From NCBI RefSeq assembly GCF_000576425.1, contig NZ_KK069996.1:77846-141845 (forward strand): DNA of 64,000 nt. The letters are read 5' to 3'. Positions 37,570 to 53,585 of the stretch are shown here, piece after piece. Below the pieces are notes generated by a model. It worked only from the letters and a program-made list of their open reading frames with translations. It was not told the origin of the DNA and did not search any database. The DNA is from Brachybacterium phenoliresistens. GTDB taxonomy: Bacteria; Actinomycetota; Actinomycetes; Actinomycetales; Dermabacteraceae. The translations under genes and the position numbers were made by a program. The stretch's first letter is position 1. Each line of letters opens with the position of its first letter.

Positions 37570-37812
37570 TCAGCGGGAGGTGCGCTCGCCGGCGGAGGAC
37601 TCGGCGGCTCGTTCCTGCTCGAGCAGGGTGCGCGTCTCGGCGTAGCTGCGCTGGATGTAGTCCTCGAGCTCGGAGATCTCGACCCGCCACTGCCCCCGGC
37701 CGCCGACCTTGATGGCGCGCAGCTCCCCGGAGCGCACCAGGGCGTAGGCCTGGGACGCGGAGATGGACAGCGATTCCGCCACATCGGACAGCGGGATGAA
37801 CCGTGGGGGCAT
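37570..37812 (-). CDS. Excisionase-type helix-turn-helix protein
   Basis: An 80-residue single-domain regulator of the HTH_17/MerR-like excisionase type: FIPLSDVAESLSISASQAYALVRSGEL makes the HTH, then the wing with GGRGQWRVEISELEDYI. The C-terminus is helical and Glu-rich. It is divergent from the SAF/CpaE pilus-type genes, and the intergenic region holds the shared TTGTCCACA element, so a role in regulating those genes is plausible. I cannot say what it binds. It is not phage-linked here. Confidence 0.88.
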   Translation of the reverse strand: MPPRFIPLSDVAESLSISASQAYALVRSGELRAIKVGGRGQWRVEISELEDYIQRSYAETRTLLEQERAAESSAGERTSR

Positions 37813-37934
37813 CTGGACTCCTCGGGGTCGGGCACGCCCATTGTCGCACCTCCGGGCCCGCGGGAGGAGGCGACGAGCGCCCGCGCGTCCCTCCTGCGAC
37901 GCGCTCGCCTGCGCATTCTCCGCGAGCGCGGCAG

Positions 37935-37987
37935 TTGTCCACAGCCGATGACCACCGGGCCCGCCCGCCTGCGGGCTCGTCTACCCT
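37935..37987 (+). promoter_or_regulatory. TTGTCCACA element with a TAnnnT hexamer, upstream of SAF/CpaE
   Basis: TTGTCCACA at 37935-37943 is identical to the actinobacterial DnaA-box consensus. TACCCT at 37982-37987 begins 47 bp after the start of that 9-mer. The same pair, with the same 47-bp offset, recurs before the main Tad locus at 51356-51408. It is 72 bp before the ATG at 38059. Confidence 0.6.
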
Positions 37988-38058
37988 CGAACCAGCGCGG
38001 CCCGCCGCGCCCGTCCCCGCCCCTGGCCGTCACGCCGCGGCCGTCCCCGGAGGTCCCG

Positions 38059-38706
38059 ATGACCGATGCCGCCCCCGCCCCCGCAACGATGCGCCTGCGG
38101 AGACCCCGCTGGAAGGACCCGCGCCTGGTGGTCGGCATCGCCCTGGTGCTGCTGAGCATCCTGCTCGGCTCCGTGCTCGTCTCCCGCCTGGCCGAGACGA
38201 CCACCGTCCTCGCCGCCCGCGTGGACATCGTTCCCGGCGACGTCATCACCGCCGACAAGCTCACGTCTGTGGACGTGCGCCTCGGAGAGCTCGAGGGCCT
38301 CTACGTCCGCGATCTCGAGGCGATCCCCGAGGGGTCCGTGGCCATGCAGACGGTCCGCTCCGGGGAGCTGCTGACCGTCTCCGCGGTGGGGCAGGGCACG
38401 GAGGTTCCGCTGCGTCCCGTCGTGCTGCCCGTCGAGGAGTCGGTCGCGCAGTCCGTCGCGCCCGGCGGGCAGGTCGAGCTGTGGCGCACCCGCGAGGGGA
38501 TCGACGGCGCCCCGCCCACCGCGGAGCTCCTCATCGACAGCGCCGTCGTGCGCCGGGTCGACGAGGGCAGCGCGATCGGGATGCGCTCGATGACCGTCGA
38601 GGTCCTCGTGCCCGCCGAGGACGTGCCGCTGGTCCTCGAGGCGCTGGCCGAGGACGCCCGGCTGGACGTCATCGGAGTCCCCGGCGCCCAGGGGGCGCGC
38701 TCATGA
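38059..38706 (+). CDS. SAF domain protein (CpaB/RcpC-like)
   Basis: A 215-residue protein with a short cytoplasmic N-terminus, one membrane helix (VVGIALVLLSILLGSVLV) and an SAF domain (VDIVPGDVITADKLTSVDV, then IPEGSVAMQTVRSGELLTVSAV). CpaB proteins are the periplasmic/outer wall parts of Tad pilus systems. Good GGAGG ribosome-binding site before ATG 38059. It overlaps the CpaE-like gene by four bases, so the two act together. Confidence 0.87.
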   Translation: MTDAAPAPATMRLRRPRWKDPRLVVGIALVLLSILLGSVLVSRLAETTTVLAARVDIVPGDVITADKLTSVDVRLGELEGLYVRDLEAIPEGSVAMQTVRSGELLTVSAVGQGTEVPLRPVVLPVEESVAQSVAPGGQVELWRTREGIDGAPPTAELLIDSAVVRRVDEGSAIGMRSMTVEVLVPAEDVPLVLEALAEDARLDVIGVPGAQGARS

Positions 38707-39914
38707 TCGACATCGTGCTGTGCGCCTCGGGGAGCGACGAGGTCCGCATCGTGCACGACCTCGCCCCGACGGGGTCCCGGGCACGGGTCGTCCGGCGCTG
38801 CGCGGATCTGGCGGAGACCCGCGGCGCCGCGGCCGCCGGGATCGGCGACGTCGTCGTCATCGACCTCACCGTGCGCGGCCTGGACCGCGATGCGATCGCG
38901 GATCTGCTGCGCACGGGCGCCGCCGTGGTGGGCCTGCGCCCCGACAGCGCCGCCCTGGGCCGCACCGACCTGGGGCTGCGCCACGTCGTCGACTCCTCCG
39001 CGTCGGTCGAGGAGATCCTCACGGCGATCGAGGCGGCCATCGGCGAGGACGAGGAGGAGGTCGACGCCTGGACCCAGGGTCCTCCGGCCGATCCCAGCGA
39101 CGACGAGCCGCGAGGCCGGATCCTCGTGGTGTGGGGACCCGCCGGAGCCCCGGGACGCTCGACCGTCGCCGTGAACCTCGCCGCGGAGGCCGCGGCCGCC
39201 GGGACGGAGACGGTCCTGGTCGATGCCGACACCTACGCCCCGAGCCTCGCGCAGATGCTCGGCGTGCTGGAGGAGGCTCCCGGCCTCGTGGCCGCGTGCC
39301 GGGCGAGCGCCCGGGACACGCTGGATGCGCGGACGCTGGCCGGGCTTCTTCCCTCGCTGGGGCCGGGGCTGCGGCTGCTAACCGGGATCGGCGTCGCCGC
39401 CCGCTGGGCGGAGGTCCGGCCCAGCGGCCTGGACGGCGTGTGGTCCGCGCTGCGCCGCCGCGGCGGGCTCGTGATCGTCGACGTGGCCGCAAACCTCGAG
39501 GAGGACGAGGAGCTCAGCTACGACACGAGCGCCCCGCAGCGCAACGGCGCCGCGCTCTCCGCCCTGCAGGCGGCCGACCAGGTGCTGGCCGTGGTCGATG
39601 CCGAGCCCGTCGGCATCACCCGGCTGATCCGCGAGCGCGAGCGGCTCGAGGAGCTCGGGGTGTCCGATCTGGCCGTCCTGGTCAACCGCACGACCTCCCT
39701 GATCCCGGCGCAGCGGCTGGAGGAGCTGCTGGCGGGGAGGATGCCGCTGGCGTCCCTGCACGCCCTGCCCGAGGACTCGGCCGCATGCCATCGCGCGGCC
39801 TGGGACGGGGCGCTGCTGGCCGAATCCGCCCCGCGCAGCCCGCTGCGCCGTGCCCTGAAGGAGCTGGCCTGCTCGCCGCTGGTGCAGGGCGCGCCCGCCC
39901 GGGTGGCAGGATGA
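38703..39914 (+). CDS. CpaE-like P-loop ATPase
   Basis: A 403-residue protein: an N-terminal receiver-like region (about 1-125) and a MinD/ParA-type ATPase. The Walker A is GPAGAPGRST, where the two Lys residues of the canonical deviant Walker A (KGGxGKT) are replaced; actinobacterial CpaE homologues commonly show GAPGR at this site. The DADTYAPSLAQMLG and VDVAANLEEDEEL stretches follow. CpaE localises or assists Tad pilus assembly. ATG 38703 overlaps the SAF gene stop. Confidence 0.83.
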   Translation: MIDIVLCASGSDEVRIVHDLAPTGSRARVVRRCADLAETRGAAAAGIGDVVVIDLTVRGLDRDAIADLLRTGAAVVGLRPDSAALGRTDLGLRHVVDSSASVEEILTAIEAAIGEDEEEVDAWTQGPPADPSDDEPRGRILVVWGPAGAPGRSTVAVNLAAEAAAAGTETVLVDADTYAPSLAQMLGVLEEAPGLVAACRASARDTLDARTLAGLLPSLGPGLRLLTGIGVAARWAEVRPSGLDGVWSALRRRGGLVIVDVAANLEEDEELSYDTSAPQRNGAALSALQAADQVLAVVDAEPVGITRLIRERERLEELGVSDLAVLVNRTTSLIPAQRLEELLAGRMPLASLHALPEDSAACHRAAWDGALLAESAPRSPLRRALKELACSPLVQGAPARVAG

Positions 39915-39918
39915 GCGC

Positions 39919-40371
39919 ATGAGGATCTATCTGCCCGTGACCCCTGCCGAGCACGCCGCGCTGCGCTCCGGTGCCGGGGCCCTGGAGCTTCCTGCCGGAC
40001 GCTCCGCCTGGGCCGTGCATGCCTCGGCGCGCACGGACCGCCCGGGGGAGGACCCCGAGGATCTCGAGTACGACGCCCTGCAGGACGCCGTGCACGTCGC
40101 CCTGACCTCCGGCCCCCAGGAGGACCCGGATCGTCGCGCCCTGGTGGTGGCGGGGGACGTCCCCGACCGGGCCGTGGTCGAGTCCCCCGAGGAGGGCGGG
40201 GCCTACGGCATCGAGCTCCCCGCGCCCGCCACGCTGCGGATCGCCGCCTTCCACGTGAGCGAGCTGGGGGCGCGCGCCGTCGAGGCCGACGACACGGACC
40301 CGGCCCTGCTGTGGTTCGACGCCAGCGAGGGCGCCGCGGCGCTGGACTACGCGGAGGCGCCGTCGCGGTAG
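39919..40371 (+). CDS. DUF6912 family protein
   Basis: A 150-residue protein starting MRIYLPVTPAEHAAL, with an EYDALQDAVHVAL helix and ERAVVESP-like strands; this matches the actinobacterial DUF6912 pattern as I know it. It starts 4 bp after the CpaE-like stop and its 3' end overlaps the convergent DUF2505 gene by 25 bp. Function unknown. Confidence 0.78.
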   Translation: MRIYLPVTPAEHAALRSGAGALELPAGRSAWAVHASARTDRPGEDPEDLEYDALQDAVHVALTSGPQEDPDRRALVVAGDVPDRAVVESPEEGGAYGIELPAPATLRIAAFHVSELGARAVEADDTDPALLWFDASEGAAALDYAEAPSR

Positions 40372-40853
40372 GTGCGGGCCGCCTTCTGCTCGGCCTTCAG
40401 CACGCGCGAGACGTACGGCATGGCCGCCTTCTCCAGACGCTTGCCGAGCACCGGGACCTTCGCGACGAGCTCGCCGTCGATCACGATGTCCGTGGTGCCC
40501 TCCGCGCCCGGGGTCATGGAGACCGAGGCGGTCATCGAGGCCGGGGTGCCGACCACGACGAGATGCGTGGTGCCGGTGCGGCTGCCGTCGGCCTGCGGGG
40601 CCGACCACTGCTGGACCTCGCGCACCGTGATCGAGGAGCCCACGAAGGGGCGGGCGATGTCCGGGACGCGGTCGGTCGGCATGGAGAGGTCCGTCGAGAC
40701 GGTGAACGCGGCCTGCACGTCGCCCTCCACGCTCGAGGACGCGTCCTGCGCGCCCAGCACCTCGCCGCGGACCGTCGCGTAGCGCGGATCGGCGTACATC
40801 GCGGCGACGTCCTGCGCGGGCATCGGCAGGCTCAGGGTCTCCGTCAGCTTCAT
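40347..40853 (-). CDS. DUF2505 domain-containing protein
   Basis: A 168-residue START/SRPBCC-like protein: MKLTETLSLPMPAQDVAAMYADPRYATVRGEVL marks the N-terminus, with strands such as TTHLVVVGTPASMTASVSM. DUF2505 proteins are thought to bind hydrophobic ligands; none is known here. ATG 40853 has GGAGGAAG upstream; the frame open a little further upstream is not homologous. It is divergent from pdtaS across a 22-bp tandem duplication. Confidence 0.85.
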   Translation of the reverse strand: MKLTETLSLPMPAQDVAAMYADPRYATVRGEVLGAQDASSSVEGDVQAAFTVSTDLSMPTDRVPDIARPFVGSSITVREVQQWSAPQADGSRTGTTHLVVVGTPASMTASVSMTPGAEGTTDIVIDGELVAKVPVLGKRLEKAAMPYVSRVLKAEQKAARTYRDGASA

Positions 40854-40872
40854 GGTCTCTTCCTCCAGCATC

Positions 40873-40916
40873 GGCGATGAGGCCAACTCTATGTGGCGAT
40901 CGGGCCAACTCTATGC
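40873..40916. repeat. 22-bp tandem duplication in the DUF2505/pdtaS divergent promoter region
   Basis: Two adjacent 22-bp copies (40873-40894 and 40895-40916) agree at 19 positions, including a 13-bp identical core GGCCAACTCTATG. On the minus strand each copy has TAGAGT, a possible -10 for DUF2505. The duplication may double a promoter or operator. Confidence 0.9.
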
Positions 40917-40943
40917 CAGGCACCGGCAGCTGCCGGGCGGCCC

Positions 40944-40949
40944 TAAGCT
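40944..40949 (+). promoter_or_regulatory. -10 hexamer for a leaderless pdtaS transcript
   Basis: TAAGCT lies 6 nt before ATG 40956. Confidence 0.5.
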
Positions 40950-40955
40950 GGTGGC

Positions 40956-42449
40956 ATGCCCAGCCTCGCGAAGTTCCTCTCCGACTCCACCGGTTCCCTC
41001 TCCGCCGCCGCCGAGTGGCTGCAGCTCCTGGTGGGGGACTGGAACCTTGTGGCGGACCTGCTGCGCTCGGATCTGGTGCTGTGGATCGAGCGGGAGGGCG
41101 AGGTCCTCGCCATCGCCCACTGCCGTCCCGCGACCGGCCAGTCCGTCTACTACGACGATCCCGTCGGCAGCCCCGCCCCCGAGGACATCGCCGGCGACAT
41201 CTCGCAGCTGCTGGCGGGCCATCCCGTCGACCGCACGGCCCGCGCCGTGCAGCGCGAGGACCGCCCCGCCCGGGTGCGCCTGACGCCGGTGCGCAAGGAG
41301 GGGAAGCTGCTGGCCGCCGTCACGGTGGAGACCTCCGCGCAGGAGACCGCGGCCGGCACCGCCGAGGCCCACATGGACGAGCTGGGCCAGCGCCTGCTGC
41401 AGATGATGGACGCCGGCGCCTACCCGATCGCGGGGGCTCCGATCCCGCCGAGGCGCGGCGCCCCGCGCGTGGGCGACGGGATCGTCCAGCTCGACGAGAC
41501 GGGGACCGTGCAGTGGGCCTCGCCCAATGCGCTCTCGGCCTTCCACCGCTTCGGGGTCGAGGGGGACATGCGCGAGCGCACGCTCGCGGAGCTGAGCACC
41601 GAGGTCATCCAGACCCGTTCCCCGGTGGACGAGTCGCTGCCGCTGGTGCTCATGGGGCGGGCCGCCTGGCGGTCGGACATGCAGGCCCGCGGCGGGACGC
41701 TGTCGCTGCGCGCGGTGCCGCTGACGGAGGCGGGCCGGCGCACCGGCGCGATCGTGCTGGTCCGGGACGTCACCGAGCTGCGCCGTCGCGAGCGGGAGCT
41801 CATCACCAAGGATGCGACCATCCGCGAGGTCCACCATCGCGTCAAGAACAACCTGCAGACGGTGGCGGCGCTGCTGCGCCTGCAGTCGCGGCGCATGAAG
41901 TCGGAGGAGGCCCGCGACGCCCTCTCCGAGGCCATGCGACGGGTCTCCACCATCGCGCTGGTGCACGAGTCCCTGCTGCAGGGCAGCGAGGAGACCGTGT
42001 TCTTCGACGAGGTGATCGACCGCTGCCTGCGCCTGGCCGTGGACGCCGCGAGCGCCTCGGTGCGCCATGTGGGCGCGCCGGCCGTGGGAGGCAGCCAGGT
42101 CGAGGTGCGCACCTCCAAGGAGGGCAAGGCCGGGGCGGTCCGGGCCGAGGAGGCCACGCCGCTGGCGCTCGTGGTCACCGAGCTCGCCACCAATGCGGTC
42201 GAGCACGGCCTGTCCGACACCGGCGGGACCCTCACCGTGCGCAGCGAGCGCAAGGGGAGCCATCTGGTCATCTCCATCGAGGACGACGGCGTGGGCATGG
42301 GATCCCGGGGCGCGCCCACCGGTCTGGGCACGAACATCGCCCAGACGCTCGTGCAGGGCGAGCTCGGCGGGACGCTGACCTGGGAGGACCGCAGCGGCGG
42401 GGGGACCCGGGCCACGGTCGACGTCTACCTCGACCCGATCGGCGTCTGA
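40956..42449 (+). CDS. pdtaS: PdtaS-type sensor histidine kinase
   Basis: A 497-residue cytoplasmic kinase: GAF-like N-terminus (about 1-150), PAS domain (VQLDETGTVQWASPNALSAF), HisKA_2 box HHRVKNNLQ, and a HATPase domain with N box VVTELATNAVEHGL, then DDGVGMGS. PdtaS acts with the RNA-binding regulator PdtaR in mycobacteria and controls antitermination through ANTAR targets; the partner is not in this window. whiB1 is convergent downstream, the mycobacterial arrangement. A strong terminator follows. Confidence 0.95.
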   Translation: MPSLAKFLSDSTGSLSAAAEWLQLLVGDWNLVADLLRSDLVLWIEREGEVLAIAHCRPATGQSVYYDDPVGSPAPEDIAGDISQLLAGHPVDRTARAVQREDRPARVRLTPVRKEGKLLAAVTVETSAQETAAGTAEAHMDELGQRLLQMMDAGAYPIAGAPIPPRRGAPRVGDGIVQLDETGTVQWASPNALSAFHRFGVEGDMRERTLAELSTEVIQTRSPVDESLPLVLMGRAAWRSDMQARGGTLSLRAVPLTEAGRRTGAIVLVRDVTELRRRERELITKDATIREVHHRVKNNLQTVAALLRLQSRRMKSEEARDALSEAMRRVSTIALVHESLLQGSEETVFFDEVIDRCLRLAVDAASASVRHVGAPAVGGSQVEVRTSKEGKAGAVRAEEATPLALVVTELATNAVEHGLSDTGGTLTVRSERKGSHLVISIEDDGVGMGSRGAPTGLGTNIAQTLVQGELGGTLTWEDRSGGGTRATVDVYLDPIGV

Positions 42450-42454
42450 CGCGC

Positions 42455-42486
42455 GAGGAGCCCGTCGCGACGGCGACGGGCTCCTC
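42455..42486. terminator. Strong bidirectional stem-loop between pdtaS and whiB1
   Basis: A 14-bp perfect stem (42455-42468 with 42473-42486; GAGGAGCCCGTCGC and complement), loop GACG, in the 100-bp gap between convergent genes. Confidence 0.8.
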
Positions 42487-42549
42487 GGAAGTCGAGCAGA
42501 TCGGCCGCGGACCCGAGGGGGCGGGGCGACGGCCGCGGTGCGGCGGGTC

Positions 42550-42798
42550 TCAGCCTGCGCGGCGGGCGCGGGCGTTGCGGCGCTTGAGGGAGCGGCGCTC
42601 GTCCTCGGACAGACCACCCCAGACACCCGAGTCCTGACCGGTCTCCAGGGCGAACTTCAGGCACGCCGTCATGACGTCGCAGCGCTGGCACACCGCCTTC
42701 GCCTCCTGGATCTGCGTGATCGCCGGCCCGGTGTTCCCGATCGGGAAGAACAGCTCGGGATCCTGCGTGAGGCACTCTGCGCGGTGGCGCCAGTCCAT
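42550..42798 (-). CDS. whiB1: WhiB1 transcriptional regulator
   Basis: An 82-residue [4Fe-4S] protein very close in pattern to mycobacterial WhiB1: starts MDWRHRAECLTQDPELFFP, then CQRC and ACL for the remaining cluster Cys ligands, TGQDSGVWGGLSEDER, and a basic tail. WhiB1 binds the sigma-70 region 4 and is NO-sensitive and essential in mycobacteria. ATG 42798 is fixed by homology; a longer frame upstream is not conserved. GAAAGAGAG precedes it. Confidence 0.96.
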   Translation of the reverse strand: MDWRHRAECLTQDPELFFPIGNTGPAITQIQEAKAVCQRCDVMTACLKFALETGQDSGVWGGLSEDERRSLKRRNARARRAG

Positions 42799-42952
42799 CG
42801 TCACTCTCTCTTTCCGGATCACCCCGCCGCACCCGGAGGATGCGGCACGGTGGTGCTCTCGCCCGCTGTTCGGGCGATGTTCGTGGGACGGCCTCTTCGT
42901 GCCGCGGCCGGAGCGTGAGATGCCCTCCGGGGCGCGAAGGCGGGCTGATTCC

Positions 42953-42981
42953 ATTGTTGCGGGGTGACCCGGTGGTCACAA
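42953..42981 (-). promoter_or_regulatory. Candidate whiB1 promoter with inverted repeat
   Basis: On the minus strand TTGTGA (42981-42976) and AACAAT (42958-42953) form a 4/6 and 4/6 promoter match with a 17-bp spacer, about 155 bp before the ATG. The perfect inverted repeat GTGACC-N4-GGTCAC at 42964-42979 overlaps the -35 and spacer. Mycobacterial whiB1 is regulated by a CRP family protein; the half-site spacing here (8 bp between TGTGA-type halves) differs from the classic 6. Confidence 0.45.
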
Positions 42982-43070
42982 GGGGATGCGCAGGTCAGGT
43001 GGGTGGCACTTCCCACAGCCCAGAGCCTTGCGTCGAAACGTCCGATACGGGCGTCCTGGTCGGCGGGCGA

Positions 43071-43076
43071 TACAGT
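43071..43076 (+). promoter_or_regulatory. -10 hexamer for a leaderless transcript
   Basis: TACAGT lies 6 nt before ATG 43083. Confidence 0.5.
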
Positions 43077-43082
43077 GCTGGC

Positions 43083-43583
43083 ATGACGACGTCCGAGCCC
43101 GCGCAGGGCGCCCCGGGACGCCCGGGTGCGGCCCGTCCCGACCGCCCCGAGGCGCCCGCCCTGCTCGGGACCCGCCGCGCGGCGGCCGCGCTCCTGGCCC
43201 TGGAGGGCCTCGCCCTGCTGGGCGTGGCGACCTTCGCCTTCGCGGTGATCGCCCGCGTCCCCGAGGGCGGACGGTTCGGCACCGGGCTGGGGATCTTCGT
43301 CATCGCCTTCGCCCTGGCCGTGTTCGCCGCGGCCCGATCGATCCTGGCCCGCACCCGCTTCGGCGTCGGCTACGGCATCACCTGGCAGCTGTTCCAGGCC
43401 CTGGTGGGCGCCAGCCTGCTCACCGCCGGTCTGATCCCCGAGGGGTTCGCGGCGATCGCCGTCGCCGTCGCGACCTTCGTGCTTCTCACCCGGATCGCCC
43501 GGGCCACCCCTCTGCCCCACGATCTCGCCGCCGCGGCGGAGGACCGCCGCGACGGCACCGGCCCCTCGCGCCCGCGGCGCTGA
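43083..43583 (+). CDS. Small integral membrane protein, unknown function
   Basis: A 166-residue protein with a Pro/Ala-rich cytoplasmic N-terminus (~30 residues) and four hydrophobic segments (AAALLALEGLALLGVATFAF; LGIFVIAFALAVFAAA; ITWQLFQALVGASLLTAGLI; IAVAVATFVLLTRIA). It resembles small DUF-type membrane proteins of Micrococcales near whiB1. ATG 43083 is leaderless-like. Convergent with the permease gene 43 bp away. Confidence 0.78.
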   Translation: MTTSEPAQGAPGRPGAARPDRPEAPALLGTRRAAAALLALEGLALLGVATFAFAVIARVPEGGRFGTGLGIFVIAFALAVFAAARSILARTRFGVGYGITWQLFQALVGASLLTAGLIPEGFAAIAVAVATFVLLTRIARATPLPHDLAAAAEDRRDGTGPSRPRR

Positions 43584-43626
43584 CGCCGGGGGCGGAGGAG
43601 CCGGAGGACGTCCGCGACCTGGGGGA

Positions 43627-46170
43627 TCAGGACTCGGCCGCGGCCAGGGCCTGTGCGGGAGCCGTCGAGGCGGCGCGACGGGCCGGCAGCACCGAGGCGA
43701 TCAGTCCCGCCGCGAGGGTCAGCACGATCACCGTCAGGACCTGCACCCAGGGCACGGTGACGACGGTCGGGAAGGTCGAGCCGAAGATCGCCATGATCCC
43801 CGTGGTGCCGTAGAGCATCCCCAGGGCCACGCCCAGCACCGCGCCGATCACCGCGAGCAGCAGGCCCTCCCAGGCGAGCATGGAACGCATCTGGGCGCGG
43901 GTGGTGCCCAGCGCCCGCAGCAGCGCGTTCTCGCCGGTGCGCTCGACCACGCCGAGGCTCAGCGTGTTGGCCACGCCGACCAGGGCCACGAGCACGGCGA
44001 CCGCGAGCAGGCCCAGGGTGATCGCCAGCAGCACGCCGAGGATCTGCCCGTACATCTCCCGCTCGACGCCCTCGGCGCTCATGGACGGGTCGGTGAAGCC
44101 GCCCTCCTCGAGCGCATCGCGCAGGTTCAGCAGGATCGTGGTCGAGTCGAGCCCGCCGCGGGCGCTGGCGCCGGGGGCGGCCATGTCCACGAACAGGGCG
44201 GTGGCCGGATCGCCGCCGGCCAGCTGCGCGAAGGTCGCCGGGGTCAGCAGGCTCATCGCGAGGTTGCCGTCGAGCTCGACGGTCACCGGCACGGTGCCGC
44301 CGTCGGCGGCGGGAAGCGTGAGCACCTGCCCGTCGTGCAGCCCGAACTGCTCTGCGCGATCCCCGCCGGTCAGCAGCACGCCGTCGGCCATCTTCGCGGA
44401 GATGTCCCCGCGCACGGCGACGTCGTCGATCTCCTCGGGCGTGGGGCCGTAGACGGTCATCGTGTCGCGGGCGTCGACGTCCAGCTCCGCCGTGGGGACC
44501 TCCACGGCCTTCTCGATGCCCTGCACCGCCTCGACCTGGGCGACGGCGTCCTGCGGCATCGCCTCGGCCCGGACGACCATGTCGATCGGCTTGCGGTTGT
44601 CGAGATCGGAGGTCAGCGAGACCTCCGCGGTGTGGGCGCCCACCGCCATCATGGTCATGAGGGTGGTGCCGATCAGGAGCGCGGAGATCGTCGCCGCGCT
44701 GCGGCGGGGGTGGCGCAGCGTGTTGGCCGCGGCCACCGTGGCAGGGACCCCGCCCAGGCGCCGCACCACGCGGCCGATGAGGGAGGTCGCGATCGGGGTG
44801 AGCACGACCAGGCCCACGAGCGCGGCCACGAAGCTGACGACGCCGCCGGCGATGGCCAGCAGCAGCCCCGGGCCCGTGGTCCCGGCCAGGGAGATGCCGG
44901 TCCCGGCCAGCAGCATGCCGACGCCGGCGACGAACGCGGCCGCGGAGCCGACGGCGCGCAGCCGCCCGGCCCCTCGGGAGCTCGCCTCGACGGGGCGCAG
45001 CGCCTCCAGCGGGGCGACCCGGGTCGCCCGGCGCAGCGGGGAGACCCCGGCGAAGACGGTCACCAGCACCCCGGCGATCAGCGGCAGCGCCACCGACAGC
45101 ACGCTGACGGGGACGATGCCGAGGCCCGGGGTGGCCCCCAGCAGGAAGGCCGCGAGCAGGGCCAGCTGGGCCAGGACGTGCCCGAGCAGCAGCCCCGCGA
45201 CGGAGCCGACCAGCCCGACGCGCAGCGACTCCCCGCGCACGGTCGCCGTGACCTGCCGGCGGGTGGCGCCGAGGGTGCGCAGCAGGGCGAGGTCGCGGGT
45301 GCGCTGGGCGAGGGTGACGGTGAAGGTGTTGCCGACCACCACGGCCGCGGTGAGCAGGGCGATGACGACGAACACGCCGAAGATGGACCCCATGGCGACC
45401 ATCCCGGACAGGCCCTGGGACTTCGCCTCGGCGATGGCCTGCTCGGCGGTGACGATCTCGACACCGGCGGTCGAGCCGGAGCGCGCGATCGCCTCGGCAT
45501 CGGCCCCCGGGGTGAGGGCGGCATGCCAGGTGTAGGTGCTCGCCGGGAGGTCGCCGCCGGTCAGGACCGGGGCGTTGGCCGCGGTGAGCACGGCCCAGGG
45601 CGTGTCGAAGGCGAACAGGTCCGAGCCGGAGGCCGAGGGAGCGAGGATCCCGGTGACCTCGAGGGACACCTGCTGCTCCTCGCCCTGCGCGTCGTAGGTC
45701 TGCGCGAGGACCGCGTCGCCGACGCCGACCCCGAGGGCCTCCGCCGTCTCCGGGGCGAGCGTGATCTCGTGATCGCCGACGGCCTCGCGGCCCTCGCCGA
45801 CCGCGGTGGGGGCCACCTCCTGCGGCGGGAGCGTGCGCAGCTCGACGAAGCGGGGAGATCCTCCCGGCGCCGCGGACCGCAGCTCCGTGTAGTACGAGGC
45901 GACCGGCCACATGGCCGCGACGTCCCGGAGCGCGGGGGCGGGCGGGGCGCTGACGGTGCCGTCGGCGTTCTCGACCGGCTCCGCGCCGCCGGTGTCGATG
46001 ACCAGATCGGCGCCGCGGTAGGTCGACTCGGCGCTCTGGTCCAGGGACGCGGTCATGAGGTTGCCCGCCAGCACGAGCACGGCGACGAACGCGGTGGACA
46101 GGGCGATGGTGACGATGGCGGCGACATGGCGCCGCACCGGGGTGATGCGGGGACGTGCGGGCCGGCTCAT
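43627..46170 (-). CDS. FtsX-like permease of an ABC exporter (MacB type)
   Basis: An 847-residue protein with two FtsX-like four-helix halves: an N-terminal helix, an extracytoplasmic domain (~200 residues), three helices around residues 260-400, linker helices, a second extracytoplasmic domain, and three C-terminal helices (LGVVERTGENALLRALGTTRAQMRSM in the second core). Such permeases act in lipoprotein or peptide export or in resistance modules. ATG 46170 overlaps the ATPase gene stop. Two-component genes lie immediately upstream on the same strand. Confidence 0.93.
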   Translation of the reverse strand: MSRPARPRITPVRRHVAAIVTIALSTAFVAVLVLAGNLMTASLDQSAESTYRGADLVIDTGGAEPVENADGTVSAPPAPALRDVAAMWPVASYYTELRSAAPGGSPRFVELRTLPPQEVAPTAVGEGREAVGDHEITLAPETAEALGVGVGDAVLAQTYDAQGEEQQVSLEVTGILAPSASGSDLFAFDTPWAVLTAANAPVLTGGDLPASTYTWHAALTPGADAEAIARSGSTAGVEIVTAEQAIAEAKSQGLSGMVAMGSIFGVFVVIALLTAAVVVGNTFTVTLAQRTRDLALLRTLGATRRQVTATVRGESLRVGLVGSVAGLLLGHVLAQLALLAAFLLGATPGLGIVPVSVLSVALPLIAGVLVTVFAGVSPLRRATRVAPLEALRPVEASSRGAGRLRAVGSAAAFVAGVGMLLAGTGISLAGTTGPGLLLAIAGGVVSFVAALVGLVVLTPIATSLIGRVVRRLGGVPATVAAANTLRHPRRSAATISALLIGTTLMTMMAVGAHTAEVSLTSDLDNRKPIDMVVRAEAMPQDAVAQVEAVQGIEKAVEVPTAELDVDARDTMTVYGPTPEEIDDVAVRGDISAKMADGVLLTGGDRAEQFGLHDGQVLTLPAADGGTVPVTVELDGNLAMSLLTPATFAQLAGGDPATALFVDMAAPGASARGGLDSTTILLNLRDALEEGGFTDPSMSAEGVEREMYGQILGVLLAITLGLLAVAVLVALVGVANTLSLGVVERTGENALLRALGTTRAQMRSMLAWEGLLLAVIGAVLGVALGMLYGTTGIMAIFGSTFPTVVTVPWVQVLTVIVLTLAAGLIASVLPARRAASTAPAQALAAAES

Positions 46171-46943
46171 CGGGCGCCCCCGGCGGCGGGCACGGAGGCG
46201 GCGCGGGCGGCGGAGGGCCCGAAGGGTCCCTGCTCGTCGCTGGCGATGCGGCCGTCGGCGAGGGTGACGATGCGGTCGGCGCGCTCTGCCGCGTCGCGCT
46301 CGTGGGTGACCATGACGACCGTCTGGCCGAACTGGTCGACCGAGAGCCGCAGGAAGTCCAGGACCTCCTCCGTGGTGCGGGAGTCGAGGTTTCCGGTGGG
46401 CTCGTCGGCGAAGATCACCGCGGGCGAGCCGATCAGGGCACGGGCGATCGCCACCCGCTGGACCTGCCCGCCGGAGAGCTGGGAGGGCAGATGGTCCAGG
46501 CGGTCGGCGATGCCGAAGGCGGAGGTGATGGTGTCCAGCCAGGCGCGGTCCGCGCGGGCGCCGGCGAGGTCCAGCGGCAGCAGGATGTTCTGCTCGGCGG
46601 TCAGCATCGGCAGCAGGTTGAAGGACTGGAACACGAAGCCGATCCGGTCGCGGCGCAGCCGCGTGAGCGCGTCGTCGTCCAGGGCGGTGAGCTCGGTGCC
46701 CTCCAGCTCGATGCTGCCGGAGGTCACGGCATCCAGCCCCGCGAGCACGTGCAGCAGGGTCGACTTCCCGGAGCCGGAGGGGCCCATGATCGCCGTGAAC
46801 GCCCCGCGCTGCAGGTCGAGGTCCACCCCGTCCAGGGCGAGCACCTGCGAGGTGCCGCTGCCGTAGGTGCGGCGCAGGTCGCGGGCGCGCAGGGCGGGCC
46901 CCTGCGCGGGGGACGAGGAGGGGGAGGCGGGAGAGGATGACAT
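46167..46943 (-). CDS. ABC exporter ATP-binding protein (LolD/MacB-like)
   Basis: A 258-residue ATPase: Walker A MGPSGSGKST, Q-loop FVFQSFNLLP, signature LSGGQVQRVAIARAL, Walker B VIFADEPTGNLDS, H-loop MVTHERD. It pairs with the FtsX-like permease. ATG 46943 fits with an AAGGA about 13 nt upstream and is fixed by the domain start. A Ser/Pro-rich N-terminal ~18 residues precede the domain. Confidence 0.95.
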   Translation of the reverse strand: MSSSPASPSSSPAQGPALRARDLRRTYGSGTSQVLALDGVDLDLQRGAFTAIMGPSGSGKSTLLHVLAGLDAVTSGSIELEGTELTALDDDALTRLRRDRIGFVFQSFNLLPMLTAEQNILLPLDLAGARADRAWLDTITSAFGIADRLDHLPSQLSGGQVQRVAIARALIGSPAVIFADEPTGNLDSRTTEEVLDFLRLSVDQFGQTVVMVTHERDAAERADRIVTLADGRIASDEQGPFGPSAARAASVPAAGGAR

Positions 46944-47084
46944 GGAGGTTCGTTCCTTCGCTGGTGGACTGTTCCCCCTCAGCCTCCGCCATGCCGGGCC
47001 CCGCGCACATCGGCGCGAGGTCGTGAGGCCGCGGCGGGACATGAGCCCTGAGCAGGAGGGACAGGTCCGCCCACGGTATGACGC

Positions 47085-47168
47085 GGGATCATCCGCCCAC
47101 GATCACCCGCGCGGGATCGCCAGCGCGGGATCGCTCGCCCCGGATCGCCCGCCCGGGATCACTCGCCC
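47085..47168. repeat. 14-bp tandem repeat, six copies, through a stop codon
   Basis: Units start at 47085, 47099, 47113, 47127, 47141 and 47155, an exact 14-bp period, with consensus GGGATCGCYCGCCC; copies two and five differ in the first two bases or one. The last copy overlaps the stop codon (47159-47161) of the response-regulator gene. It is a minisatellite-like array, and copy number may differ between strains. It lies between that gene and the ABC exporter. Confidence 0.95.
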
Positions 47169-47848
47169 GGGCGCACCAGCCCCGTCTCGAAGGCCGTGAT
47201 CACCGCATGCACCCGGTCGCGGGCGCCGAGCTTGGACAGCACCCGGCCCACGTGCGTCTTCACGGTCGCCTCGGCCACGAACAGCTCCGCCCCGATCTCC
47301 GTGTTGGACAGCCCCTTGGCCATGAGGGTGAGGACCTCCCGCTCCCGGTCGGTGAGGGAGTCCAGCACGGCCGTGGACCGGGTCGCGGACGGGACGGCGG
47401 AGACCATCTGCTCCATCAGGCGCCGCGTGGCCGAGGGCGCGATCACCGCATCCCCGCGATGGACGGTCCGGATGGCGCTGAGCAGCTCCTCCGGCTGGGA
47501 GTCCTTGAGCATGAAGCCGCTGGCCCCGGCGCGGATCGCGGCGACGACGTAGTCGTCCAGGTCGAAGGTGGTCAGCACGATGATCCGCGGGGCGCGATCC
47601 GCGGGGGCGCGGGAGAGGATCTGCCGGGTCGCCTCGATGCCGTCCATCCGCGGCATGCGCACGTCCATGAGGACCACGTCGACCATCCGGGAGGCGAGGG
47701 AGTCCACGGCGGCGGCCCCGTCGTCGGCCTGGAGGACGACCTCGAGGTCGGGCTGGGAGTCGATGACCATCGCGAAGCCGGCGCGCACCAGCGGCTGGTC
47801 GTCGACGAGGGCGATGCGCAGCGGCAGGGAGGTCTCGGGCGTGGTCAT
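47159..47848 (-). CDS. NarL/LuxR-family response regulator
   Basis: A 229-residue regulator: receiver domain with VDDQPLV, phosphoacceptor Asp in VVLMDVRMPRMDG and the Lys in MLKDSQPEEL, then a LuxR HTH (LTDREREVLTLMAKGLSNTEIGAEL). It pairs with the kinase gene, overlapping it by four bases. The stop lies within the 14-bp tandem repeat. Position and strand suggest regulation of the adjacent ABC exporter. Confidence 0.95.
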   Translation of the reverse strand: MTTPETSLPLRIALVDDQPLVRAGFAMVIDSQPDLEVVLQADDGAAAVDSLASRMVDVVLMDVRMPRMDGIEATRQILSRAPADRAPRIIVLTTFDLDDYVVAAIRAGASGFMLKDSQPEELLSAIRTVHRGDAVIAPSATRRLMEQMVSAVPSATRSTAVLDSLTDREREVLTLMAKGLSNTEIGAELFVAEATVKTHVGRVLSKLGARDRVHAVITAFETGLVRPGE

Positions 47849-49128
47849 CGGGCGGTCCTTCCGGGGACGGGGGCATCGGGTCGCAGGGGGATGCGTGCGC
47901 TCACACGGTAGCCGCCGCCGGGCAGCGGGCCGGTCTGCAGCTCGCCCTGGAAGGCGGCGATGCGCTCGCGCATGCCGGTCAGGCCGTGGCCCTGGCCGTC
48001 GGAGGCCGGGTCGTGGCCCCGGCCGTCGTCGAGCACGTCCAGGCGCAGCAGGTCGCCGGTGCGGGCCAGCTCCACGCGCACGCTCGCGGCGGGGCCGGCA
48101 TGCTTCATCACGTTGGTCAGCGCCTCCTGGACGACGCGGAACACGGTCAGGCCCAGGGCGTGGGGGACCGTGGCGAGGTCGCCGTCACGGCGCAGCTCGA
48201 CGCGCACCCCGGCGCTGCGGACCCGGGCGACGAGCTCGTCGAGCATCTCGATGCCGGGCTGCGGGCCGAAGCTCGTCTCCTCGTCCTGGCGCAGCACCCC
48301 CAGCAGGTTGCGCATGTCGGCCAGGGCCGCGCGGCCGGTCGCGCCGATGGTGGACAGCACGTCCTGCGCCTTCTCGGGCTGCTGGGCGGCGATGAACCGG
48401 CCGCCGTCGGCCTGGGCGATGATCACCGACAGCGAATGGGCCACCACGTCGTGCATCTCGCGGGCGATGCGGGCGCGCTCGTCGGCGACGGCCAGGGCCG
48501 TGCGCTGCTCGCGCTGATGCACCTCCTGCGCGGCCCGCTCCCGGGCCAGGCGCAGCTGGTCCACGCGCACGTGCTGGTACCGGCCGATGGCCCAGGTCCC
48601 CAGCACCGCGACGCAGCCCACGAACAGCGAGACCGCGAAGACGAGGACGATCTCGTACAGCTCCCCGAGCGAGTGCACCGTCACGGCCAGGCTCGCCGCC
48701 ATGGCGCCGGCCTGCAGGAGCGCCCCGAAGAAGGCGGCTCCCAGCGCCAGGCGACGGGCGAGGGCGGAGCCGTGCACGGTCGCGCAGAACAGGGCGTAGA
48801 AGATCATCGCGTCGCCCAGCACGTAGGGCTGTCCCGCGACGAAGTGGAGCACGGCGAGGATGCCGATCACGAGGGTCGCCCCGCCGGTGCGGGTGCGCAG
48901 GAACGCGCCCGCGGCGACCATCGGGAAGGTCGACAGCAGCCACCATCCCAGCGAGCCGGTCAGGACCGAGAACGCCGCCAGGAACAGCGCGCCGCCCCCG
49001 AAGACGACCAGGTCCACCCAGCCGGGGTGCTCGACGACCCAGCGGAAGGGGTCGAAACGGGTCCGGGGCGCGGGCCGGAGGTCGGGGCCTCCCGCCCGGG
49101 CCGCGGCGGGGTCGTGCGGTGCGCTCAT
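47845..49128 (-). CDS. DesK/NarX-type sensor histidine kinase
   Basis: A 427-residue kinase with about five or six membrane helices in the first ~190 residues, then HisKA_3 (ERARIAREMHDVVAHSLSVII) and HATPase (VVQEALTNVMKHAG; DDGRGHDP; GHGLTGMRERI). A short extracytoplasmic part suggests sensing within the membrane, as in Bce/LiaS-type systems. ATG 49128 has TAGGCT 6 nt before it, indicating leaderless expression. Operon with the response regulator. Confidence 0.93.
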   Translation of the reverse strand: MSAPHDPAAARAGGPDLRPAPRTRFDPFRWVVEHPGWVDLVVFGGGALFLAAFSVLTGSLGWWLLSTFPMVAAGAFLRTRTGGATLVIGILAVLHFVAGQPYVLGDAMIFYALFCATVHGSALARRLALGAAFFGALLQAGAMAASLAVTVHSLGELYEIVLVFAVSLFVGCVAVLGTWAIGRYQHVRVDQLRLARERAAQEVHQREQRTALAVADERARIAREMHDVVAHSLSVIIAQADGGRFIAAQQPEKAQDVLSTIGATGRAALADMRNLLGVLRQDEETSFGPQPGIEMLDELVARVRSAGVRVELRRDGDLATVPHALGLTVFRVVQEALTNVMKHAGPAASVRVELARTGDLLRLDVLDDGRGHDPASDGQGHGLTGMRERIAAFQGELQTGPLPGGGYRVSARIPLRPDAPVPGRTAR

Positions 49129-49134
49129 GCCTCG

Positions 49135-49140
49135 AGCCTA
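49135..49140 (-). promoter_or_regulatory. -10 hexamer for a leaderless kinase transcript
   Basis: On the minus strand TAGGCT ends 6 nt before ATG 49128. Confidence 0.5.
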
Positions 49141-49196
49141 GGGATGACGCGGCATGCCGGCGTCCTCCCGTGGTCGGAGCCGGGGTGCGCCATGCG

Positions 49197-49970
49197 TCAC
49201 GCCGGCGGCAGCGGGATCCGGCCCTGGGCGGTCCCCGCCGGGGCGATGAGGTCCGGTCCGTCGTGGCGGACGCTGCCGACCTCCGGGCCGACGGGCCGCA
49301 CCTCGAGCAGGGCGTCGTCGATCAGGTTCGCATCCTCCAGGGCGAAGGCCTGGGCATCGGCCGCCCGGTCCATGCCCGGATCCAGCCACCGGTCCACGGC
49401 CTCCCGGGTGAGCATGAGCGGGGTGCGGTCGTGGATGTCGGCGAGCTCGCCCCGGGACTCGCGGGTGATGATGCTCGCGCTGAGCAGCCAGGCGCCGTCG
49501 GCGCTCGCCGCCGGGCCCTCGTGCCCGCCCGGGCCCTTCCACCAGGAGATCAGCGCCGCCATGTACAGCAGGGAGCCGTCCGCCGGGGTGATGAAGAAGG
49601 GCTCCTTGGTGCGCCGGCCCTTCGCATCGCGCCGCCACTCGTAGTAGCCGTTCATCGGGACCACGGCCCGGTAGCGGGCCAGGGAGCCGCGGAAGGACGG
49701 CTTCTCGGCGAGGGTCTCGCGCCGGGCGTTGAAGGTGCGGGCCGAGAAGGAGAGGTCCTTCGCGAAGGGAGGCAGCAGGCCCCATCGGGCCATCCGCAGC
49801 GCCCGCAGCACCTCCCCGGAGTCCCGGTCGATCGACTCGGTGACGACGTGGATCGGCACGGTGGGCGGGATGTTCCAGCGGGCCCGGAAGCCGGGCTCGG
49901 TGAGATCCACGGCGCCGAGATCGTCCAGCAGCGGCTCGATCTCCTGGTAGAACGCGAATCGACCGCACAT
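49197..49970 (-). CDS. SOS response-associated peptidase (YedK/HMCES family)
   Basis: A 257-residue SRAP protein. The catalytic Cys2 follows the initiator Met (MCGRFAF), with the conserved NARRET, VVPMNGYYEW (Glu) and IHDRTPLML (His) motifs. SRAP proteins form a covalent crosslink with abasic sites in single-stranded DNA, shielding them. ATG 49970 is fixed by the Cys2 motif. Confidence 0.95.
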   Translation of the reverse strand: MCGRFAFYQEIEPLLDDLGAVDLTEPGFRARWNIPPTVPIHVVTESIDRDSGEVLRALRMARWGLLPPFAKDLSFSARTFNARRETLAEKPSFRGSLARYRAVVPMNGYYEWRRDAKGRRTKEPFFITPADGSLLYMAALISWWKGPGGHEGPAASADGAWLLSASIITRESRGELADIHDRTPLMLTREAVDRWLDPGMDRAADAQAFALEDANLIDDALLEVRPVGPEVGSVRHDGPDLIAPAGTAQGRIPLPPA

Positions 49971-50029
49971 GGCGGGCCTCCTTCTGGGCGGCGGGATCGG
50001 GGCTGCGGGCCGGCGCGACGCCGAGGGCG

Positions 50030-51202
50030 TCAGTCCTCGCGCTCGGGGGCGGAGGCCCGGTCCTCCGGCGGGGTGAGGCGGTGCTCGGGGCCGGTGTAGG
50101 AGGCCGCGTCGTGATGGAGGTTGCGCAGGCGGATGTCCCGGCCCGCGTCGACGACCTGCTGGTACTTGTCCTCCGCCTTGACCGCGCCGGCCTCTGCGCG
50201 CAGCGGCAGGGCCAGGGAGTCCTCGGCGGGCTTGCCGGCGGCCAGCTCGCGGGCCCGCTCGTACTCGGCGTCGACCTCCGCCCCCAGCAGGATGACCGTG
50301 TTCACGACCCACAGCGCGAACAGGACCGCCATGATCGAGCCGATCGCCCCGTAGGAGGAGTAGGAGGCCAGGGTCGACATGTACAGCGACAGCGCCAGCA
50401 GCGCGAGGGCGATCCCCAGGATCGCGAACACGCCGCCGGGGGAGATCAGCCGGAAGGGCTTGGCGATGTTGGGGGTCGCCCAGTACAGCAGCGAGATGAG
50501 CACGAACATCAGCAGCACCACCACCGGCCACTTCGCCCACGCCCAGATCGGCAGGAAGGAGTCCACCAGGAAGGTGAGCAGCCCGGTCGCCCCGATCGGC
50601 TCGGCGATCGGCCCCAGCAGGGAGGTCACGATCGACTCGCTCAGCAGCAGGGAGATCGCGATCGCGAGGATGCCCAGGACCAGGGCGGCGGTCACGGCGA
50701 GCATGGTGCCGTTCATGCGGATCGGCCCGCGGCCTTCGGGGACGTCGTACATGGCGTTGGAGACCCGGGCGTACGCCTTCACGTACGCGGAGGCGGACCA
50801 CAGGGCCGTCGCGATACCGATGATCAGGGCGACCGTCCCGCCGGTGGAGCTGCCCATCAGCGATTCCAGGGTCGATGTGACCAGGGGTTCGAGGTTCATC
50901 TGGCCGCCGTCAGGGTTCGACCGGGCGATCATGTCGATGATGAGCTGGGAGATCTGCTCCTGGAAGCCCTGCAGCACCAGCGTCGCCAGGGAGAACACCG
51001 CCAGCAGGGTCGGGGCGACCGAGAGCACCATGAAGTAGGTGAGCTTCGCGGCGTGGTCGGTGCCGCCGTCGCGGCCGAACTCCGTCAGCACGCGCTTGGC
51101 CATGTACACCACGGTGGCCCGCGTCAGGCGGGGCCGGTCCTTCGCTGCCGGGCTCGTGGCCGAGCCGCTCGTCGTCACCGGGGATGCGTCCTTCGCCGTC
51201 AT
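50030..51202 (-). CDS. YihY/BrkB-family membrane protein
   Basis: A 390-residue protein with about six membrane helices; the HAAKLTYFMVLSVAPTLLAVFSL and AYARVSNAMYDVPEGRGPI patterns and ANPNIAKPFR-like loop match BrkB/YihY. Role is unclear (older RNase BN name is a mistake). A charged C-terminal tail of ~100 residues extends past the domain. ATG 51202 has GAGGAA upstream. Confidence 0.9.
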   Translation of the reverse strand: MTAKDASPVTTSGSATSPAAKDRPRLTRATVVYMAKRVLTEFGRDGGTDHAAKLTYFMVLSVAPTLLAVFSLATLVLQGFQEQISQLIIDMIARSNPDGGQMNLEPLVTSTLESLMGSSTGGTVALIIGIATALWSASAYVKAYARVSNAMYDVPEGRGPIRMNGTMLAVTAALVLGILAIAISLLLSESIVTSLLGPIAEPIGATGLLTFLVDSFLPIWAWAKWPVVVLLMFVLISLLYWATPNIAKPFRLISPGGVFAILGIALALLALSLYMSTLASYSSYGAIGSIMAVLFALWVVNTVILLGAEVDAEYERARELAAGKPAEDSLALPLRAEAGAVKAEDKYQQVVDAGRDIRLRNLHHDAASYTGPEHRLTPPEDRASAPERED

Positions 51203-51355
51203 GGTTCCTCCGCGATGTCGGGGACCGGCCGGGGGCCGGGTCTCAGGCGATGTCATCCTTGCACGTCGCAGGCCTGCGCGCACCGGGTGCGCCGTCGCGG
51301 GCGCGTCCCCGGGGCCCGGGGACGGACGTCCTCCGCGGCGGGCGCCGTGCCGGAG

Positions 51356-51408
51356 TTGTCCACAATCCTCGGGACGGGGGAGCGGGATCCGGCCGATCTC
51401 CCTAGAGT
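51356..51408 (+). promoter_or_regulatory. TTGTCCACA element with a TAnnnT hexamer, upstream of the main Tad operon
   Basis: TTGTCCACA at 51356-51364 is preceded by AG, giving the same 11-bp AGTTGTCCACA as at 37933-37943. TAGAGT at 51403-51408 starts 47 bp after the 9-mer start, the same offset as at the SAF/CpaE locus. The leader to the ATG at 51490 would be about 75 nt with GGAGGGG near the end. Confidence 0.6.
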
Positions 51409-52713: not shown

Positions 52714-53585
52714 TCCAGGGAGCGCTGCTCGGTCTGCTGATGGGCGTGGGCCTGGTCGCCATCTGGCGCTCCTGCTGGGAGACCGCGGAGCCCCGTGCCG
52801 CGGGCCCGGGCCGGCTCAGCACGTGGAGCGACCGGATCCGCGACGACCTCGTCCAGGTGGGGCTCGGCAGCGTGCCGCCGGTCGCCGTGCCGGCGCTGAG
52901 CGCCGGGGCAGCTCTCGTCGTGCTGGCGACCCTGTGGTCGATCTCCTCCGCGCTCGTGCCCTCGTTCGCGATCGCCGTGGGCACCGCAGCGCTGCCGGTC
53001 CTCGTGCTGCGCTCCGCGGCACGCCGGCGGCGCATCGAGCTGCGCGAGGTCTGGCCCGAAGCGGTGGACCACATCAACTCCGCCGTCCGGGCCGGCATGT
53101 CCCTGCCCGAGGCGCTCGTGCAGGTCGGCGAGCGCGGCCCGGAGGCGCTGCGCCCGCCGTTCGTGGAGTTCGCCCGCGACTATCAGGCCAGCGGAGACTT
53201 CGGCAGCTGCCTGGACCGCCTCAAGGTGCGCCTGGCGGACCCCGTCGGCGACCGCATCGTCGAAGCGCTGCGGATCACCCGGGACGTGGGCGGCACCGAT
53301 CTGGGGGTCCTGCTGCGCACCCTCTCCTCGTTCCTGCGCGAGGACGCCCGCACCCGCGCCGAGCTCGAGGCCCGCCAGTCCTGGACCGTGAACGCGGCCC
53401 GTCTGGCGCTGGCGGCGCCCTGGATCGTGCTCGTGCTCATGTCGACGCGACCGCAGGCCGCCCAGGCCTACGACTCCCGCGAGGGGATCCTGCTGATCCT
53501 CATCGGCGGGGCGGTCTCCCTCGTGGCCTACCGGGTGATGCTGCAGATCGCGCGGCTCCCCCAGGACGAGAGGGTGCTGCGATGA
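52710..53585 (+). CDS. TadB-type pilus assembly membrane protein
   Basis: A 291-residue type II secretion F-domain protein with about four membrane helices and the F-domain core (DHINSAVRAGMSLPEALVQVG). It overlaps the TadA gene by four bases and TadC by four bases. It forms the inner-membrane platform for the pilus with TadC. Confidence 0.9.
   Translation: MIQGALLGLLMGVGLVAIWRSCWETAEPRAAGPGRLSTWSDRIRDDLVQVGLGSVPPVAVPALSAGAALVVLATLWSISSALVPSFAIAVGTAALPVLVLRSAARRRRIELREVWPEAVDHINSAVRAGMSLPEALVQVGERGPEALRPPFVEFARDYQASGDFGSCLDRLKVRLADPVGDRIVEALRITRDVGGTDLGVLLRTLSSFLREDARTRAELEARQSWTVNAARLALAAPWIVLVLMSTRPQAAQAYDSREGILLILIGGAVSLVAYRVMLQIARLPQDERVLR

Follow-up and report, generated by a model that had tools for sequence, protein, structure and literature searches.

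A DnaA-like box at a fixed distance above the -10 of tad, comEA and recA promoters in Brachybacterium phenoliresistens and related actinobacteria

In a 64-kb stretch of the Brachybacterium phenoliresistens genome (the window, i.e., the whole of the DNA analysed), the word TTGTCCACA lies upstream of two Tad-related operons, one opening with cpaB and the other with tadA, in each case at the same distance from a putative -10 hexamer. The two sites belong to a shared promoter class, whose reality we regard as practically certain and whose members are cpaB-cpaE, the tadA cluster, comEA-comEC and recA. In this class a 9-bp box, (T/C)(T/C)NTCCACA and variants, has its first base 46-50 bp above a TAnnnT or CAnnAT hexamer, with no consensus -35; alternative spacings are about one helical turn less or more. 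We lean, by somewhat better than an even balance, towards the full reading that these promoters form a conserved class in Actinomycetota, serving competence and recombination and marked by a DnaA-like box, for which DnaA would be the most likely binder and the HTH_17 protein encoded divergently from cpaB a repressor.

Two boxes in the window and the architecture of the promoter class

Box 1 (TTGTCCACA, positions 37935-37943, plus strand) precedes cpaB and is conserved in the genus and in other families; the putative -10 of the cpaB promoter, TACCCT (37982-37987, plus strand), starts 47 bp from the first T of the box. Box 2 (the same word, 51356-51364, plus strand) precedes tadA and is conserved among the named tadA loci, and the putative -10 of the tadA promoter, TAGAGT (51403-51408, plus strand), again starts 47 bp from the first T. 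The initial annotation, made from the window alone, had reported these two distances and the inclusion of both boxes in an identical 11-bp sequence, AGTTGTCCACA (37933-37943 and 51354-51364), and both observations were confirmed. Its view that chance was unlikely agrees with the count of TTGTCCACA, which occurs exactly twice in the 64 kb, a number that none of 100 shuffles attained (mean 0.06). Both copies are 5′ of, and on the same strand as, a Tad-related operon. The 9-mer had also been equated with the actinobacterial DnaA box, and at both sites TTGTCCACA does fit the consensus TT(G/C)TCCACA (PMC4285127); the promoters have a -10 without a consensus -35, as had been noted.

When all loci described below are considered, the offsets between box and -10 fall into clusters, at 37-39, 46-50 and 57-58 for forward boxes and at 34-37 and 44-45 for reversed boxes. 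The centre of the box is ∼43 bp above the -10, which corresponds to about -55 from the transcription start if the hexamer occupies -12 to -7, and in part of the promoters another box lies upstream of it, 17 or 27-30 bp away. The lack of a -35, the fixed spacing, the ∼10-bp jumps and the second boxes point to an activator that contacts RNA polymerase from one face of the helix, and we consider it very probable that the class is of the activator type.

The box in the B. phenoliresistens genome

The whole genome (4.19 Mb) contains 17 copies of TTGTCCACA and 40 of TTNTCCACA; the corresponding reversed words number 2 and 8, respectively. The 120 bp after each of the 40 TTNTCCACA sites were read for TAnnnT, with offset 47 set beforehand by the initial annotation, before the genome count was made. 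Across offsets 12-103 there were 23 such hexamers in total; 12 of the 40 sites have one at offset 47 (seven sites) or 48 (five), none has one at 46, 49 or 50, and three each lie at 36-39 and 56-59. The absence of any offset preference, which had been named as an outcome that would refute the proposal, did not hold. For offsets 46-50 the binomial probability is ∼1e-15, a rough value because the background rate was drawn from the remaining offsets of those same sites.

The pairs with a 47/48 offset precede cpaB (SAF), tadA, recA (L027) and two HNH genes (L002 and L018), as well as L028, which is cut by the contig end and has no family, and L134; the last two are alike, by eye, in their upstream DNA and N-terminus. 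The same spacing is found at a 483-amino acid (aa) frame without a family (L006), a WXG100-like protein whose match falls marginally short of the Pfam cut-off (L010), a 394-aa protein with no family match (L135/L214), a sub-threshold MTES_1575-like protein (L021) and a DUF6318 protein (L030). A partner at 57-58 is present at an HNH gene (L026), a DUF222 gene (L029) and a frame without assignment (L008). The comEA gene of this genome has a box with a relaxed first half, CTGTCCACA, and TAGCGT at 47, and TCGTCCACA stands 5′ of a uvrD-type helicase gene (TATCCT at 47) and of recQ (TAGTCT at 48). Genes of DNA uptake and recombination and nuclease genes are prominent in the box-bearing set, several of whose members lack an assignment. 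Further members of the class in this genome are probably recQ, the uvrD-type helicase gene, several HNH/DUF222-type genes and the MTES_1575-like genes. The HNH-type promoters L002, L018, L028 and L134 share near-identical DNA from the -10 on; within it, TTTCGAACAGGCAATCGAA looks like one half of a LexA-type site.

A sequence-only model of the element (R1) placed cpaB, the MTES_1575-like gene, tadA and comEA as its top four in this genome. All four were in its training set, and R1 is therefore a list-maker that provides no independent evidence. Its matches outside the training set, the uvrD-type helicase gene (E 0.044) and recQ (E 0.285), were both weak.

The initial annotation had proposed that DnaA, or another activator using the same word, may coordinate pilus genes with the replication cycle. 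The shared, position-fixed promoter element has stood and DnaA as its binder has done so in part, but the restriction to pilus genes proved too narrow: because comEA-comEC, recA, recQ, uvrD-type and nuclease-type genes carry the element, a regulon for competence and recombination is a better description than pilus genes tied to the replication cycle.

Conservation of the element and its gene neighbourhood

Conservation at tadA was analyzed in 80 loci with record titles, obtained from a genome-contig scan using TadA. By title, 53 records are from the Arthrobacter group and 4 from Brachybacterium, and the rest are from Cellulomonas, Ornithinimicrobium, Knoellia, Janibacter, Modestobacter and others. 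TTNTCCACA lies ≤260 bp 5′ of tadA in 57/80 loci (0.195 in dinucleotide shuffles, 0.13 in random 260-bp segments of these loci), and TTNTCCACA with TAnnnT at 46-50 in 53/80 (0.005 and 0.0, respectively). Related species had been named as the place where the pair might prove to be missing; it is kept at those 53 tadA loci and, as NNNTCCNCA with TAnnnT at 46-50, at 27/30 cpaB loci of the genus, the window's own included. In the offset-48 tadA group (24 sequences), identity is 0.30-0.31 in the spacer, 0.28 upstream and 0.75 at the -10, and 0.95 in the box, where it is partly owing to the selection of sequences. The spacer has diverged while the -10 was kept, and we therefore attribute the conservation to selection and not to shared descent of a block. 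At four tadA loci (L041, L042, L102 and L114) the partner is at 37-38.

At offsets 24-29 after the tadA box a CTTG-type word is present (identity 0.61), ∼20-24 bp above the -10; it was not seen in the window's promoters and is possibly a weak -35 or a second contact. In the Arthrobacter-type loci L048 and L098, CTACTCACA and ATACTCACA, respectively, at offset 46-47 are followed by a CAGTAGGGTG -10 region in place of TTATCCACA. In two records, titled Vibrio cholerae 35D (L082) and Spirochaetaceae metagenome-assembled genome (L056), the encoded TadA has 64-66% identity to the query, the level seen in Arthrobacter; both contigs probably represent actinobacterial contamination in public records.

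The three genus cpaB loci outside the count are L159 (partner at 39), L171 (short upstream region; fits at 46) and L174 (truncated contig). For other families, loci from 80 of the 114 non-genus genomes that gave a match were used, covering 17 families of the order, 60 of the 80 being hand-picked. A box in either orientation lies within ∼300 bp 5′ of cpaB in 59/80 of these loci (shuffles: mean 2.5, maximum 9), where the -10 is often CAnnAT. With TAnnnT or CAnnAT as partner, 15 of the 22 partners of forward boxes in offsets 20-75 are at 46-50 and 5 at 37-39; for reversed boxes, 12 of 27 are at 34-37 and 4 at 44-45. In 79/80 of these other-family loci cpaB has the HTH_17 gene as its divergent neighbour, a very stable pairing for an 80-aa protein whose gene resisted deletion in Micrococcus luteus. 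By eye, a reversed box (TGTGGA...) often lies ∼30-40 bp above the cpaB box of the genus, on the HTH_17 side (L153, L157, L162, L163, L166-L170, L172 and L177), and could serve the divergent promoter.

The element is shared between the Tad genes and comEA-comEC. Within the genus, 14 of 24 com loci could be used (in the other 10 the flank falls short of comEA), and all 14, own genome included, carry two boxes 17 bp apart, TCCTCCNCA followed by NNNTCC(A/C)C(A/C), the latter with TAnnnT at 47-48; in shuffles the second box alone reached 5/14, and box plus -10 just 0.055. Of the 50 non-genus genomes that gave a match, 20 were used, with putative gene starts; box plus TAnnnT was found at 48-49 in eight and at 39 in one, and none by pattern in nine; two further matches (36 and 56) may be unrelated. 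Among the best 30 of 56 recA loci of the order, 4 from the genus, the box is present in 25, and in 22/30 the -10 of a TGTC(A/G)G...TAnnnT promoter is found 47-50 bp downstream of it, TGTC(A/G)G being what we take, like the letters of the SOS box, to be the form of the RecA-NDp motif. Among three recA loci that lack the exact word, two have a related one, TCATGCACA at 49 (L302) and CCGTGCACA at 48 (L316). In many of the loci L300-L329, ∼100-230 bp 5′ of recA, a LexA-like palindrome is seen by eye above the box, so that palindrome, TCCACA box and RecA-NDp-type word are stacked over one TAnnnT. It may be that recA integrates three inputs, SOS, PafBC and competence; regulation of recA through an SOS box as well as through RecA-NDp has been described (PMC8223512).

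Behind box 1 the window encodes, in order, a cpaB/rcpC-like SAF-domain protein of 215 aa (38059-38706, plus strand; SAF PF08666 E 3.1e-7; TIGR03177 weak, below cut-off), a CpaE/TadZ-like P-loop ATPase (38703-39914, plus; best NCBIfam match CpaE_hom_Actino TIGR03815, E 8.3e-15, below its cut-off), a DUF6912 protein right after cpaE and presumably of the same operon (39919-40371, plus; PF21853 E 8.5e-16), and a PdtaS-like sensor histidine kinase with GAF and PAS domains (40956-42449, plus; PF12282, PF08448 and PF07568). Divergent from cpaB is the gene of an HTH_17/excisionase-type DNA-binding protein of ∼80 aa (37573-37812, minus strand; PF12728 E 6.5e-11), which by domain and gene order is the counterpart of Mlut_14660 of M. 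luteus. The tad cluster behind box 2 opens with a TadA/CpaF-type secretion ATPase of 407 aa (51490-52713, plus; T2SSE PF00437 E 1.4e-36; 62-80% identity to the 80 listed TadA), followed by a frame with a TadB/TadC-type T2SSF domain, whose exact gene starts are ambiguous (52649-54526, plus; PF00482 E 1.3e-17), and a TadE-like protein (54914-55360, plus; PF07811 E 3.6e-8).

Candidate binders and relation to known systems

DnaA is the leading candidate for the binder, with a likelihood that we place at or slightly below the even mark, because the variants of the promoter box are mostly those enriched at oriC. TT(G/C)TCCACA is the DnaA box of actinomycetes, and the weak W-box of Caulobacter reads TCCCCA (PMC4285127). 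For the comparison, 32 stretches of 900 bp after the dnaA stop codon were taken as oriC (1 of 33 was dropped, at 100 bp). Relative to mononucleotide shuffles, TCCACA is enriched 16-fold in them, TCCCCA 2.6-fold, TGCACA 2.5-fold, TACACA 2.6-fold, TTCACA 2.3-fold and TCCTCA 2.0-fold, with TCCGCA (1.2-fold), ACCACA (0.9-fold) and TCAACA (1.0-fold) near 1. The departures from TCCACA among promoter boxes are TCCCCA (comEA of the genus), TGCACA, TACACA, one TCAACA (L064) and two CTCACA. For the third base, oriC and promoters lean in one direction, on data too sparse to carry weight: A is found in 7 oriC boxes of family f6 (T in 1) and in 40/57 named tadA loci (mostly of the Arthrobacter group), to which base composition may contribute, and G in 2 oriC boxes of the genus and in 7/12 of its cpaB boxes (7/30 cpaB loci left out). 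No second DnaA-type protein was found among the genomes searched, the DnaA C-domain being present once in each of 59/59 genomes of the order and in 10/11 of the genus, with none in one draft.

We further propose, as judged from sequence, that DnaA binds the box and directly activates natural competence in Actinomycetota: DnaA not bound at the origin would turn on uptake and recombination genes when starvation or stress holds back initiation, with the HTH_17 protein as a brake. We put this forward tentatively, at a little under an even balance. A protein occupying positions of about -59 to -51 would touch RNA polymerase from a fixed face of the helix and, as the geometry suggests, activate transcription; with DnaA as this protein, its free pool would link competence to replication-initiation status. 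The divergent HTH_17 protein would act as a repressor, as the published M. luteus genetics suggest.

Several observations weigh against the view of a conserved class bound by DnaA. In the window's genome, 28/40 TTNTCCACA sites are without a 47/48 partner. The relaxed word YYNTCCACA is not enriched genome-wide (297 occurrences against 304 for the reversed word), and among its first 100 of 297 matches (29 new loci) TAnnnT at 46-50 stands only at comEA; with no enrichment and one further pair, relaxed boxes are therefore meaningful in a promoter context only. The tadA records are not independent, since 53/80 are from the Arthrobacter group, and 13/80 are without a box by the patterns used, several of these having related words at 46-47: TTATGCACA (L117), ATATACACA (L088), TTATCAACA (L064), ATACTCACA (L098) and CTACTCACA (L048). 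Among the other-family cpaB loci, 21/80 have no box by the patterns used, TAnnnT at 46-50 fits just 3/80, and 11/27 partners of reversed boxes lie outside 34-37 and 44-45; the 36/80 loci that fit the preferred offsets with TAnnnT or CAnnAT and both orientations make a weaker case, because CAnnAT and reversed boxes were adopted after they had been seen. As for DnaA itself, the promoter variant TCAACA (L064) is not enriched at oriC, and an enrichment of ∼2-fold there extends to TTCACA and TCCTCA. Boxes with purines at positions 1-2 are numerous at oriC (73 against 3.4 expected); the promoter boxes were sought with pyrimidines there, and the comparison of the two spectra is therefore biased. Mutations in the HTH_17 gene, not in dnaA, dominate the tables of the M. 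luteus screen as far as these are available (PMC8467076).

The last observation bears on the alternative that the HTH_17 protein (Mlut_14660 family) binds the box and is itself the competence regulator. In an ethyl methanesulfonate screen that scored changes in comEA/EC-lacZ, nearly all of the up-mutants sequenced had a single-nucleotide polymorphism (SNP) within 550 bp over the HTH_17 gene and the divergent SAF/CpaB gene (PMC8467076). Missense and 5′-region mutations of the HTH_17 gene are present in most up-mutants, some were confirmed singly and the gene could not be deleted, and the same source describes re-inserted single SNPs that did not always reproduce the effect (13-M89 failed). The near-invariant pairing of this gene with cpaB in other families (79/80 loci), and the tandem boxes, which suit side-by-side binding of a small HTH_17 protein, are in line with this alternative. 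The genetics, however, indicate a repressor, whereas a fixed spacing of ∼47 bp above the -10 is the geometry of an activator; DnaA recognises TTNTCCACA, a word to which we know of no link for this HTH_17 protein, and binding at the comEA/EC promoter awaits verification according to its authors (PMC8467076). We consider it unlikely that the HTH_17 protein is the binder. Hardly better placed, and still unlikely, is another activator with DnaA-like specificity, such as the response regulator Mlut_14110, also hit in the M. luteus screen: a substitution strain of this regulator showed transformation reduced at least 1000-fold (PMC8467076), and fixed spacing with helical phasing suits response regulators, but the variants tolerated by this second protein would have to match those of DnaA closely.

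Two further explanations appear very improbable. DnaA can be titrated by chromosomal boxes that lie away from oriC, and the boxes described here could accordingly be titration sites that happen to neighbour unrelated genes and play no part in transcription; titration needs no fixed distance to a -10, and the 12/40 sites at 47/48 and the 53/80 pairs before tadA argue against it. At recA the box lies above a TGTC(A/G)G...TAnnnT promoter in 22/30 loci, as it should if the element belonged, as an upstream portion, to the PafBC/RecA-NDp class of DNA-damage promoters, but the cpaB, tadA and comEA promoters of this genome have box and -10 with no TGTC(A/G)G word in the spacer, a word that is present at recA. 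A chance origin was rejected on the basis of shuffles, reversed-word controls, random segments and offset statistics.

A position-fixed element common to pilus, uptake and recombination genes across the order predicts the members of a regulon and a protein to pull down, and it may be the missing switch for foreign-DNA uptake in actinobacteria. If DnaA is the binder, the initiator itself would wire replication control to gene uptake, and the HNH/DUF222 genes, which are numerous in actinobacteria, would gain a first functional context. In the open-licence literature we found no report of the element, or of DnaA control of competence, tad or comEA in Actinobacteria, and a term search of the available text of PMC8467076 did not find the CCACA box word. 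As of January 2026, the upstream signals and the regulatory cascade of M. luteus competence were described as still to be identified (PMC12849477).

Cluster 13 of M. luteus is the closest counterpart by gene order, which matches window positions 37573-42449 save for the window's extra DUF6912 gene and ∼0.6 kb before the kinase. There the SAF/CpaB operon continues with CpaE and a PAS histidine kinase, and deletion of the SAF gene lowered transformability 10^4-fold (PMC8467076). The cluster affects both comEA/EC expression and transformation; comEA/EC is induced in minimal medium, where the cpaB operon is among the most expressed, and two down-mutants have gyrA changes among ∼8 SNPs each, with causality unproven. 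The published working model for this cluster is transcriptional interference (PMC8467076).

With DnaA-regulated promoters and with the actinomycete DnaA box (PMC4285127) the element has in common the 9-mer, partly overlapping weak variants, occurrence in either orientation and frequent tandem arrangement, and it differs in its fixed spacing to the -10 and in its set of competence and recombination genes. The promoter with an SOS box at recA of the PafBC/RecA-NDp system (PMC8223512) shares the TAnnnT -10, but the box described here is further upstream and is also present at tad and com promoters that have no RecA-NDp word. The ComX/CIN-box, ComK box and CRP-S systems of other phyla likewise use one cis-element for uptake and recombination genes, with a different sequence and geometry. 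M. luteus is described as lacking ComK and ComX in the available text of PMC12849477.

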